Positions 3,901 to 21,458 of a stretch of 64,000 bases of DNA are shown here, in pieces. Position 1 is the stretch's first letter; each line of letters opens with the position of its first letter. Origin of the DNA: Halobaculum sp. XH14. Its GTDB lineage: Archaea; Halobacteriota; Halobacteria; Halobacteriales; Haloferacaceae. The notes beneath the pieces are model-generated. The model searched no databases. It was not told the DNA's origin and saw only the letters and a list, made by a program, of their open reading frames with translations. Where the stretch lies: assembly GCF_032116555.1 (NCBI RefSeq), contig NZ_CP134949.1:3224001-3288000 (forward strand), given 5' to 3'. A program made the translations under genes and the position numbers.

Positions 3901-4051
3901 GATTGGGCTTCGTCGGGTCGAGCCAAATAGCCGACGGACGGTATGGAAGGGTTCTCGCGCTCGGGGGCTCCGGGCTGGCGGCGGCGCTCTCGCCGATCCC
4001 GTCGCTGCCGCGACCGCGGGAGTAAAGGGGGCAGCGGGCCGAGCGCGGGGT

Positions 4052-5152
4052 GTGAACTACGAGCGGCCGCAGTTCTTCCACCTGATGCAGTACGCCAGGC
4101 GGGCCGAGCGCGACGTGGTGGACATGGTGTCGGGCAACCCCGACTGGGAGCCGCCGGCCGCGTTGCGGGACGGTCTCCGCGAGTACGCAGACGTGGAGCC
4201 CGACGAGTTCCAGTACCCGCCGAGCGAGGGGCTGCTGGAGCTCCGCGAGGAGATCGCCGCGCGGCGGAACGTCTCGCCCGACCGGGTCGTCGTCACGAAC
4301 GGCACGGGCGAGGCGAACTACCTGGCGATGGCGGCGGCGCTGGATCGGGGGGCCGGCTCGGAGGTGCTCCTCACCGACCCCGTCTACCCGTACTACCCCG
4401 GCAAGACGGAACTGCTCGGCGGGGAGATGACGCTGGTGCCGACCGAACGCGACGGCTCCATCGACCCCGAGCGCTTCCGCGAAGCGGCCAGCGGGGAGAC
4501 GGGGCTGATCCTCGTCAACACGCCGAACAACCCGACCGGCGCGGTGTACTCGCGCGCGACGATGCGGGAACTCGCGGCGCTCGCGGAGGAGGTGGACGCG
4601 ACGCTGGTCTCGGACGAGGTGTACGACCACTTCGATTTCACCGGCGAGTTCGAGTCGGCCCTGACGCTCGATTCGGACCGAACCATCGTCACCGCCGGCT
4701 TCTCGAAGTCGCTCGCCATCACCGGCTTCCGCGTCGGCTACGCGGTGCTCCCCGGGGACATGGTCGGCGGGGCGAAGACCCGCCACATGCTCGTCAACGT
4801 CGCCACCTCGCGGCCGCCCCAGGTCGCCGTGTTGCGGGCGCTCCGCGAGACCGACCCGGAGTACTACGAGGACGTCCGCTCGCTGCTCCGCGAGCGGGTG
4901 GACACGTTCACCGAGGCCCTCGACGCCGCGGGCGCGGAGTACACCCGACCCGACGGCGCGTTCTACGTGCTCGCCCGGTTCGACGGCTTCCCCGGAACGA
5001 TGGCGAACGCGGAGCGACTGGTCGAGGAGGCCGGCGTCGCGGGGATGCCGGGCGAGACCTTCGGCTCCGCGCGCGACGAGTGGCTCCGGTTCGCGCTGGT
5101 CACGCCGCGCGTGGAGGAGGCGGCGACGCGACTGGCCGACTACTTCGCGTAG
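4052..5152 (+). CDS. PLP-dependent aminotransferase, class I/II
   Basis: Fold-type I aminotransferase of 366 residues; the substrate cannot be deduced. The PLP lysine is K219 in AGFSKSLAITGFRVGYA, with upstream NTPNNPTGAVYS (PLP phosphate/Asn region) and SDEVYDHF (PLP ring Asp). The C-terminal arginine for the substrate carboxylate is in DEWLRFALV. The frame is open to 3899, but sequence upstream of GTG 4052 is Arg/Gly/Ala-rich and not enzyme-like; VNYERPQFFHLMQYA begins the conserved part. It is monocistronic as far as can be seen. Confidence 0.9.
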   Translation: MNYERPQFFHLMQYARRAERDVVDMVSGNPDWEPPAALRDGLREYADVEPDEFQYPPSEGLLELREEIAARRNVSPDRVVVTNGTGEANYLAMAAALDRGAGSEVLLTDPVYPYYPGKTELLGGEMTLVPTERDGSIDPERFREAASGETGLILVNTPNNPTGAVYSRATMRELAALAEEVDATLVSDEVYDHFDFTGEFESALTLDSDRTIVTAGFSKSLAITGFRVGYAVLPGDMVGGAKTRHMLVNVATSRPPQVAVLRALRETDPEYYEDVRSLLRERVDTFTEALDAAGAEYTRPDGAFYVLARFDGFPGTMANAERLVEEAGVAGMPGETFGSARDEWLRFALVTPRVEEAATRLADYFA

Positions 5153-6906: not shown

Positions 6907-7731
6907 TCATCCAAGTCTCCGCGCCAGCGACCAGATCCCGTCGACGAGCCAGGTCGGGAGGTAGCGCCCGATCTCGCCGGCCCTGGCGACCGGGCCGACC
7001 GGGTAGCGCGCGGCCGGCTTCGTCGCGCTGGCGGCGTTGAGCACGTCCTCGGCGACGCGTTCGGGCGGCACCGCGCCGACGCCGCTCCCGCCGACGGCGT
7101 CGTAGTCCTCGTACAGCGAGTAGAGCGACTCGTACGCGCCGGAGCGGTCGAGTCCGTCGAGTTCGTCGGCGACGCGCTCCTCGAACATGCTGTCGACCGG
7201 GCCGGGCTCGACGAGCGCGACGTCGATGCCGTACTCGTCGACCTCGTTCCGGAGCGCGTCGGTCAGCCCCTCGAGGGCGAACTTGGAGCCGGCGTAGACC
7301 CCGGTGCCGGGGACGGCGACCCGGCCGAGCACGCTGGAGACGTTGACGATGGTGCCGTTCTCGCGGCGGCGCATCGCCGGCAACACGGCTTTGATGAGTC
7401 GGTGCGGGCCGAACACGTTCACGTCGAACTGCGCCCGGGCGGCCCCGGTCGTCACGTCCTCGACGACGCCGAGCTGGCCGAAGCCGGCGTTGTTGACGAG
7501 ACAGTCGATTCGCCCCGTCTCGTCGAGCACCCGGTCGACGACGCGCTCGACGTCGCCGTCGTCGGTCACGTCGAGCGTCCCGATCCGGCAGCCCTCACGC
7601 TCGCCCAGCGTCTCGATGTCGGCGGGGTTCCGGGCCGTCGCGTACACCGTCCACTCCTCGTCGAGAAACGCCTCCGCCGACGCCCGCCCGATGCCCGACG
7701 AGCAGCCGGTGATGAGGACCGTCCGTTCCAT
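6907..7731 (-). CDS. Short-chain dehydrogenase/reductase (SDR, classical)
   Basis: NAD(P)-dependent oxidoreductase of 274 residues. It has the Rossmann motif TGCSSGIG (8-15), the NNAG motif (80-83), the catalytic Ser in VNVSSVLG (about 132) and the YxxxK dyad Y146/K150. The LDVTDDGD segment and PGPVDSMF (PG motif) are typical of classical SDRs acting on retinol-, steroid- or oxidoacyl-like substrates. The actual substrate is unknown. It starts at an ATG with no neighbouring pathway genes. Confidence 0.92.
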   Translation of the reverse strand: MERTVLITGCSSGIGRASAEAFLDEEWTVYATARNPADIETLGEREGCRIGTLDVTDDGDVERVVDRVLDETGRIDCLVNNAGFGQLGVVEDVTTGAARAQFDVNVFGPHRLIKAVLPAMRRRENGTIVNVSSVLGRVAVPGTGVYAGSKFALEGLTDALRNEVDEYGIDVALVEPGPVDSMFEERVADELDGLDRSGAYESLYSLYEDYDAVGGSGVGAVPPERVAEDVLNAASATKPAARYPVGPVARAGEIGRYLPTWLVDGIWSLARRLG

Positions 7732-20439: not shown

Positions 20440-21458
20440 TTCTGGTACTGGGTTCGCGGTTCAGGGGTTTTTGTGTGTCGTTGCTCGTTCGGTTCTGCCG
20501 GGGACGTTGGGTCACTGGGTTGACGACCGTCTTGAAGGTCCCCACGGCTCTCGGCTTGAGAGTTGGTTCGGTTGGTGTGGCGACCGCCTCGAAAGCCCCC
20601 GCGGCGCTCGACTCGGTGCGGCCGCTGCGCTCCTGTCGTTCGAAAGGCGCTTTGCGCCTTTCGTGATGCCGTCGGATTCCGGTGGAATCCGACTGCTGAC
20701 GGGAAACCACCGGTTTCCCGTACTGACGAAAATCTTCGATTTTCGAACCACGGTGCTTGACGGTCCGCGCCGACGGAAGACTCGCTGCGCTCGACTTCCG
20801 AATTCTCGTTCGTTCCTGCATCGCTCACGAGAACGTCCCCGAGAACCGCGGCCCCTTTCAGTCCCACCCACACCGCACGGCACCGCCCAGCACCTCATCC
20901 TCCCCAGCCTCCTGCGCTCCTCGGCACGCTCACGCCGTTCGCGAGCCTGCGGTGCTCGTCCCTCGCGCGAGTTGGCCGCGCATGAAGCGCGGCCACCGCG
21001 CGCCACGTGGCTTGCCTACCCGAGTGCGGTGGCGCGTGCCGGCGGGCCTCAGTGCCCGCCGGATGCGCGCGAGGGATGAGTGAAGGGAGGCGAGCGGAGC
21101 GAGGCGACCGAGCGAATCGGCTGGGGAGGCGTGTGGCTGTGCCGTGCGGTGCGGTGACGGTGGGTGGGACTGAAAGGGGCCGGCTGGGTACGCGAACCCC
21201 GGACCCGCAAGCACCGGAAGGAGCGAACGTAGTGAGCGGCTGAGGAGCGCAGCGCGGTCCGCGGGAGCGTACCCAGCCGGGGGCTTTCGAGGCAGTCGCC
21301 ACACCAACCGAACCAGCTATCGAACCGGGCGCGGAGGGTAATTCGGCGGCCGGCACCGCGATACTGCCCGACGGAACTCCGTCCAACCGAAATCAGACGA
21401 CTCCCTCACGGGCGAGTAAGCCTCCGAAACCCGAACCCGACGAACCCGAAACACCCGA
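20440..21458. repeat. One-kilobase gene-free segment of nested inverted repeats
   Basis: No credible gene is present. A 40-bp arm at 20562-20601 (ending CGCCTCGAAAGCCCCC) is repeated inverted at about 21282-21322. A second pair, CGGCCCCTTTCAGTCCCACCC at about 20849-20869 and its complement near 21162-21183, lies inside the first. A string of four short hairpins sits at 20641-20745. The open frames covering this region run through the hairpins on both strands, so they are unlikely to be proteins. Confidence 0.7.
20641..20745. repeat. Four consecutive perfect hairpins
   Basis: Hairpins at 20641-20663 (CGAAAGGCGC/GCGCCTTTCG), 20671-20693 (GTCGGATTCC/GGAATCCGAC) and 20699-20721 (ACGGGAAACC/GGTTTCCCGT) each have a 10-bp stem. 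The one at 20727-20745 (CGAAAATC/GATTTTCG) has 8. Every loop is 3 nt and the spacers are 5-7 nt. All stems are perfect and none shares its sequence with another. Confidence 0.9.

Follow-up and report, generated by a model that had tools for sequence, protein, structure and literature searches.

Nested double-hairpin arrays dispersed across the Halobacteria: a probable miniature mobile DNA element defined by its fold

We identified a family of short, nested hairpin arrays that is found throughout the archaeal class Halobacteria, and that probably represents a miniature, non-autonomous mobile DNA element, for which we propose mobilization in trans. The copies are dispersed and modular, their hairpins stay paired while the stem sequences vary freely, and the two outer hairpins of a unit do not carry identical stems. 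Sister species differ cleanly in the presence or absence of the array at the same locus, a pattern that suggests transposition.

A four-hairpin array within a palindromic intergenic repeat

The array is located at 20641-20745 of the window (the whole 64,000 nt stretch of the Halobaculum sp. XH14 genome that was analysed), and consists of four perfect triloop hairpins separated by spacers of 7, 5 and 5 nt. All coordinates refer to the + strand unless otherwise indicated. Hairpins A (20641-20663, CGAAAGGCGC-TTT-GCGCCTTTCG), B (20671-20693, GTCGGATTCC-GGT-GGAATCCGAC) and C (20699-20721, ACGGGAAACC-ACC-GGTTTCCCGT) have stems of 10 bp, and hairpin D (20727-20745, CGAAAATC-TTC-GATTTTCG) has a stem of 8 bp, exactly the positions, stem lengths and loop size of the original prediction. 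The accompanying claim that the arm sequences were unrelated holds only in part: A and D share a single stem class (CGARAR...), and B and C represent two further classes. All of these stem classes recur across the genome and across the Halobacteria.

Under a dinucleotide-Markov null, hairpins of this quality are expected 4.35 times per 64 kb, no adjacent pair arose in 60 replicates, and the chance of four consecutive hairpins is about 1e-9. An origin by chance or by local tandem duplication can be dismissed, given this figure, the differences between the four stems and the dozens of copies elsewhere. The fold z-score was -7.4 for RNA (20600-20790) and -10.0 for DNA (20635-20751), and the same hairpins were obtained in both.

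The array can be divided into an outer and an inner unit. The outer unit begins with GTCGTT (20635-20640), the GTT of which is able to pair with the AAC of the right end, AACCAC (20746-20751). The linker of the outer unit is split: its first half, TGATG (20664-20668), follows hairpin A, and its other side is contained in the ACTGA linker (20722-20726) that precedes hairpin D; unsplit, it corresponds to the TGATGA of the two-hairpin form described below. Nested between the two is an inner unit of ~54 nt (20669-20722, with approximate rather than base-exact ends), composed of hairpins B and C and the linker TGCTG (20694-20698), which is also found standalone elsewhere.

The array sits in a 1 kb intergenic region, between a gene encoding a methylmalonyl-CoA mutase and one encoding a DUF5788 protein, the latter adjoining a gene for a PolX-type DNA polymerase. 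Its host is a composite repeat bounded by a 36 nt inverted repeat (35/36 identical), with the left arm at 20565-20600 and the right arm at 21279-21314 on the - strand. Left of the insertion, the composite repeat occupies 20601-20634 (CGCGGCGCTCGACTCGGTGCGGCCGCTGCGCTCCT..), with an array-free version in both sister species; to the right it extends over 20752-21278 (GGTGCTTGACGGTCCGCGCC.., with CCCTTTCAGTCCCACCC at 20853 and its inverted copy at 21162). The whole structure enclosed by the inverted repeat is palindromic and roughly 750 nt in length. The GGTGCTTGACGGTCCGCGCC and CCCTTTCAGTCCCACCC parts recur across the genus, and a variant form is present in Halorubrum.

Architecture and distribution of the family

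Aligned copies define a two-hairpin form of about 60 nt, GTCGTT-A-TGATGA-D-AACCAC, and a four-hairpin form in which the inner pair, B-(C/T)GCTG-C, is placed within the TGATGA linker. The XH14 genome yielded 59 BLAST matches to the array region. It contains 31 halves of each kind, left and right, and almost all of these were adjacent or separated by B-C only. To describe the class as a whole we used a pattern in which the linkers were fixed and each hairpin was represented by 8-30 free bases. In the GTDB genome collection this pattern matched at least 120 stretches, every one of them from the Halobacteria, and it was found in 158 of 294 Halobacteria genomes, representing 59 of 78 genera; the reversed pattern gave no match in the same 294 genomes. 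Because the search itself imposed the linkers, their constancy in this sample is not evidence; the copies are related by descent, so that the counts are not of independent events. Stem pairing, the outer GTC and CAC, and loop symmetry were left free, and the outer GTC was nonetheless 95-100% conserved. The suggestion that the hairpins belonged to a repeat element was thus borne out, both by this dispersal and by the presence/absence differences between sister species, and homologues with compensatory stem changes, on which the original prediction turned, occur in other haloarchaeal genomes across the class.

Four-hairpin copies with quite different stems and variant linkers were found in other genera (L050, L164 and L192), and the B-C pair stands alone at L026, L027, L029, L051 and other loci. 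A restriction of the four-hairpin form to XH14 was considered and dropped: the strict four-hairpin pattern, which had two further matches, neither of them a hairpin array, was too exact in its linkers, and the sample lacked genome G002. The majority of copies (106/122) are intergenic, with no clear orientation preference toward neighbouring genes and no conserved position relative to them. Plasmids carry copies, and no matching copy was found in viral contigs.

A number of related arrangements were also observed. A second two-hairpin family, GTTCACGAGAGC-NNN-GCTCTCGTGAgcTCACGAGACGC-NNN-GCGTCTCGTGAAC, has non-identical stems (L009 at 309-360, L017, L030, L033, L039 and L246), and pairs related to it combine a TCACGAGAGC hairpin with ATCAGAACGC. 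Three-hairpin arrays, in which a GCCAGAAACC hairpin is added to the B-C pair, are found at L049, L065, L071, L072, L075 and L077 in a different flanking frame (..TGCG[hairpin]AGCATT[C]..). Arrays lie within long called open reading frames at L081 (6249-6310), L136 (794-855) and L092 (1507-1568); those of L081 and L136 have a common context, so that the element may be translated in frame. In Halorubrum coriense (L098 at 7003-7140, and L166), two tandem two-hairpin arrays with identical flanks are 84 nt apart with one N between them, and this arrangement may be genuine or a product of the assembly.

Filled and empty sites

At the window locus, the XH14 sequence reads CTG[TCGTT..AACCA]CGGTGC, with the array in brackets, and both same-genus genomes read CTG^CGGTGC at the orthologous position. 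Each of the two carries CTGCGGTGC at the insertion point and has kept the host composite repeat whole or in part. An orthologous intergenic region in Halorubrum showed the same polymorphism, with two filled sites that contain different stems (L181 and L225) and five empty sites (L224, L228, L233, L246 and L247) that have the same G^C junction. The ends of the element are imperfect inverted repeats (TCGTTCGA..TCGAACCA), and no target-site duplication was found at the window locus or in the Halorubrum region. Because two sister genomes are empty, gain is the simpler reading of the window locus, although the same pattern could arise if several lineages had lost the array precisely.

Pairing is kept while stem sequences change

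We assembled 232 distinct two-hairpin units, in which 385 of the 464 unconstrained segments were perfect hairpins. The A and D hairpins mostly have 3-base loops and stems of 8-11 bp, and draw on a common pool in which the top eight stems account for 67%. When 29 distinct sequences of the inner pair were aligned without gaps, 97.9% of cells were paired, 13 of 20 base pairs were altered on both sides, and there were 57 double-change cells; each of these three values was matched by 0 of 500 shuffles. The covariation score was 0.354, compared with a maximum of 0.075 after sliding the partners. The compensatory changes seen between copies and between genera therefore strongly support the view that structure is maintained over sequence, as had been proposed from the perfect but dissimilar stems of the window array. 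Pairing does not appear to extend outwards, as flank complementarity past GTT/AAC was no higher than in shuffled flanks; by eye, a few copies show an outer helix.

The freedom of the stems has one limit. Identical A and D stems occurred in none of the 232 units, and only 7 units shared at least 7 outer bp, compared with 45 expected. An identical pair would refold as a single 25 bp hairpin, more stable than two separate hairpins. In one four-hairpin copy (L011), A and D belong to the same stem class. Collapse of arrays with A identical to D into one hairpin was considered as the cause of the rule and rejected, as it predicted single-hairpin relics and the exact pattern matched none; one degenerate single-hairpin candidate was seen at L025. 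Deletion of such arrays is a possible cause despite the absence of single-hairpin products. By analogy with heterodimeric REPs, for which removal of long palindromes via SbcCD has been argued (PMC3733652), we infer that long palindromes are removed, or that function requires two separate hairpins.

Alternative explanations

A function in RNA made from one strand should bias both the loops and the mismatches of the hairpins. The triloops of A and D are as frequent as their reverse complements (GAA 76/TTC 76, GGA 39/TCC 38, AAA 21/TTT 21), and single stem mismatches on the array strand were evenly divided (G.T 16 vs A.C 13). Between the orthologues L175 and L196, both loops are inverted. The mismatch cells of B and C on the + strand, which come from related copies, were G.T in 12 cases and A.C in 2, and the idea of a + strand G.U excess in all stems was rejected since only this inner pair shows it. 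These observations argue that the outer pair acts at the DNA rather than the RNA level, and B/C is less clear; the original suggestion of a structured RNA accordingly finds no footing in A and D, and some lean towards it is seen only in B and C, where the mismatches would suit an RNA or ssDNA of a single strand. No Rfam family matched the window at the gathering level (the sub-threshold scores of RF02919, 18.9 vs 95.9 bits, and RF01336, 23.5 vs 45, were rejected as chance), and one two-hairpin copy gave no match. We therefore consider it very improbable that the family is a functional structured RNA, whether an ncRNA or a UTR element, produced from the GTCGTT..AACCAC strand. The strong compensatory covariation, the RNA fold score and the G.U excess of B/C are what such an RNA would show, and the TGATG and CTGA linkers resemble boxes C and D, perhaps of an L7Ae-type RNA, with hairpins in the places that a box C/D sRNA would give to its guide segments. 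However, the A/D pair has no strand bias, the array is present or absent between sister species, its copies keep neither a constant placement nor a constant direction with respect to genes, and the same hairpins form in DNA. A different account of the covariation is purely mutational, in which hairpin-templated strand switching copies the arms and flips the loops without selection on structure. This process fits with loops that are as common as their reverse complements, with the small stem pool common to A and D and with the loop inversion between L175 and L196. As a sole explanation it is unlikely, as it leaves unexplained the sharp 8-11 bp stem lengths, the absence of single-hairpin forms, the fixed linkers and the rule that A and D never carry the same stem.

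The remaining alternative is that the arrays are terminal-only PATE-like remnants, or a REPIN-like derivative of IS200/IS605, moved by a Y1 HUH transposase (TnpA or RAYT). Y1 elements typically show two hairpins with inverted T(C/G)GTT ends and insert without duplicating the target (PMC3119063, PMC8266576), and several two-hairpin copies lie at the 3' ends of tnpB genes. Yet the Y1_Tnp domain (PF01797) had no match in the 3.68 Mb XH14 genome or in genome G065, both of which are rich in copies, whereas genome G007 had 10 matches and no strict array copy. The domain was detected in 5 of 14 control genomes, Haloferax volcanii among them, and the majority of the relatives examined had between one and ten matches. 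No autonomous element with array ends was seen in XH14 or in 1.07 Mb of loci. In XH14 a transposase gene practically never lay between the halves of the array, nearly all of which were adjacent or split by B-C only, and the same was true of the 1.07 Mb of loci, apart from two wider gaps. The strand symmetry of the loops and the lack of either tag described in PMC3733652 (GTAG or CGTC) also stand against a Y1 element, and only about 4-6 of 122 copies lie near tnpB. Overall, we regard this alternative as decidedly unlikely. The narrower hypothesis of an IS605 terminus, prompted by plasmid matches at tnpB 3' ends, was weakened by the same tnpB count and by the absence of PF01797, and was rejected. 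A few copies at tnpB 3' ends are expected if the element targets the palindromes of other mobile DNA. Some IS605-type tnpB genes carry two-hairpin arrays at their 3' ends (L212 at ~2501-2538, L213 at ~2501-2538 and L217 at ~4001-4062), within the likely guide-RNA region and in either orientation; at L212, the tnpB stop codon falls within a TGATCA linker.

Proposed mechanism and implications

Returning to the miniature mobile DNA element, we propose that it would move as DNA in which each short hairpin folds independently, either single-stranded or as a cruciform, and that a host or mobile-element enzyme would mobilize it in trans. The perfection of the stems might be kept both by this need to fold and by hairpin-mediated arm copying, a process that would also flip the loops. 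Stems of 8-11 bp, combined with the rule that A and D must differ, would prevent the formation of one long palindrome that repair nucleases could remove. More tentatively, the family may exemplify a fold-defined class of archaeal mobile DNA, in which two-hairpin units with fixed linkers and neighbouring stems barred from matching would insert without duplication into each other's linkers and into larger palindromes, and be spread class-wide by a non-Y1 enzyme or by replication; we hold this broader proposal to be possible rather than probable.

The family accounts for some of the palindromic 'junk' of haloarchaeal intergenic DNA, which can be seen as a nested and still-changing group of elements with testable rules. 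Its hundreds of natural paired stems could be used to tell apart structural selection, mutation by arm copying and the limit that nucleases set on palindrome length, and its distribution raises the question of which enzyme moves hairpins in genomes without IS200/RAYT transposases. The element should be masked during genome annotation and in searches for RNAs, because its covariation would otherwise resemble that of a conserved RNA.

Comparison with known systems

No description of the family was found in the open-access papers searched, and searching them for the sequence strings found nothing relevant. The array resembles REPINs, Haloquadratum SMRs and mitochondrial double-hairpin elements, and does not appear to match any of them; it is set apart from REPINs by tag and transposase, and from SMRs by copy identity. 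REPINs, or REP dimers, are likewise dispersed intergenic pairs of palindromes in inverted arrangement, with stems of about 8-10 bp similar to those of the haloarchaeal array (PMC3116915, PMC3733652, PMC8266576), and they have been observed to favour heterodimers, which was linked to SbcCD-type clearance (PMC3733652). In place of the GTAG/CGTC tag, the haloarchaeal array has the ends GTCGTT and AACCAC beside stems that start with CGA. No RAYT was found in the XH14 genome, the stem sequence is not family-specific, the heterodimer rule is absolute in 232 copies, and the triloops are strand-symmetric.

The lack of target-site duplication is shared with IS200/IS605 and PATE elements. The SMR, MITE and PATE elements of Haloquadratum walsbyi are also haloarchaeal, small, transposase-free and inserted without target duplication, and SMRs often lie within the palindromes of other mobile elements, as does the array (PMC3119063). 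Both SMRs and the array have terminal inverted repeats, imperfect in the array, and the mobilization of SMRs has been termed enigmatic (PMC3119063). SMR-A is about 110 bp in length, with prominent terminal repeats and copies that are commonly over 95% identical (PMC3119063). The array family is instead recognized by its structure, and its stems change freely, a distinction drawn from the published description of SMRs rather than from the HqIRS40-43 or HqIRS55 sequences.

The mitochondrial double-hairpin elements, or repetitive hairpin-forming elements, of fungi (Allomyces) and sponges also have two short hairpins per unit, and are intergenic, dispersed, free of flanking duplications and sometimes tandem or multiple (PMC2800124). 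In the haloarchaeal family, mobility is suggested by presence and absence. The mitochondrial elements differ in being organellar, often AT-rich and usually limited to groups of related species (PMC2800124), whereas the haloarchaeal family spans a whole archaeal class and has fixed linkers, stem exclusion and a unit nested at one defined site.
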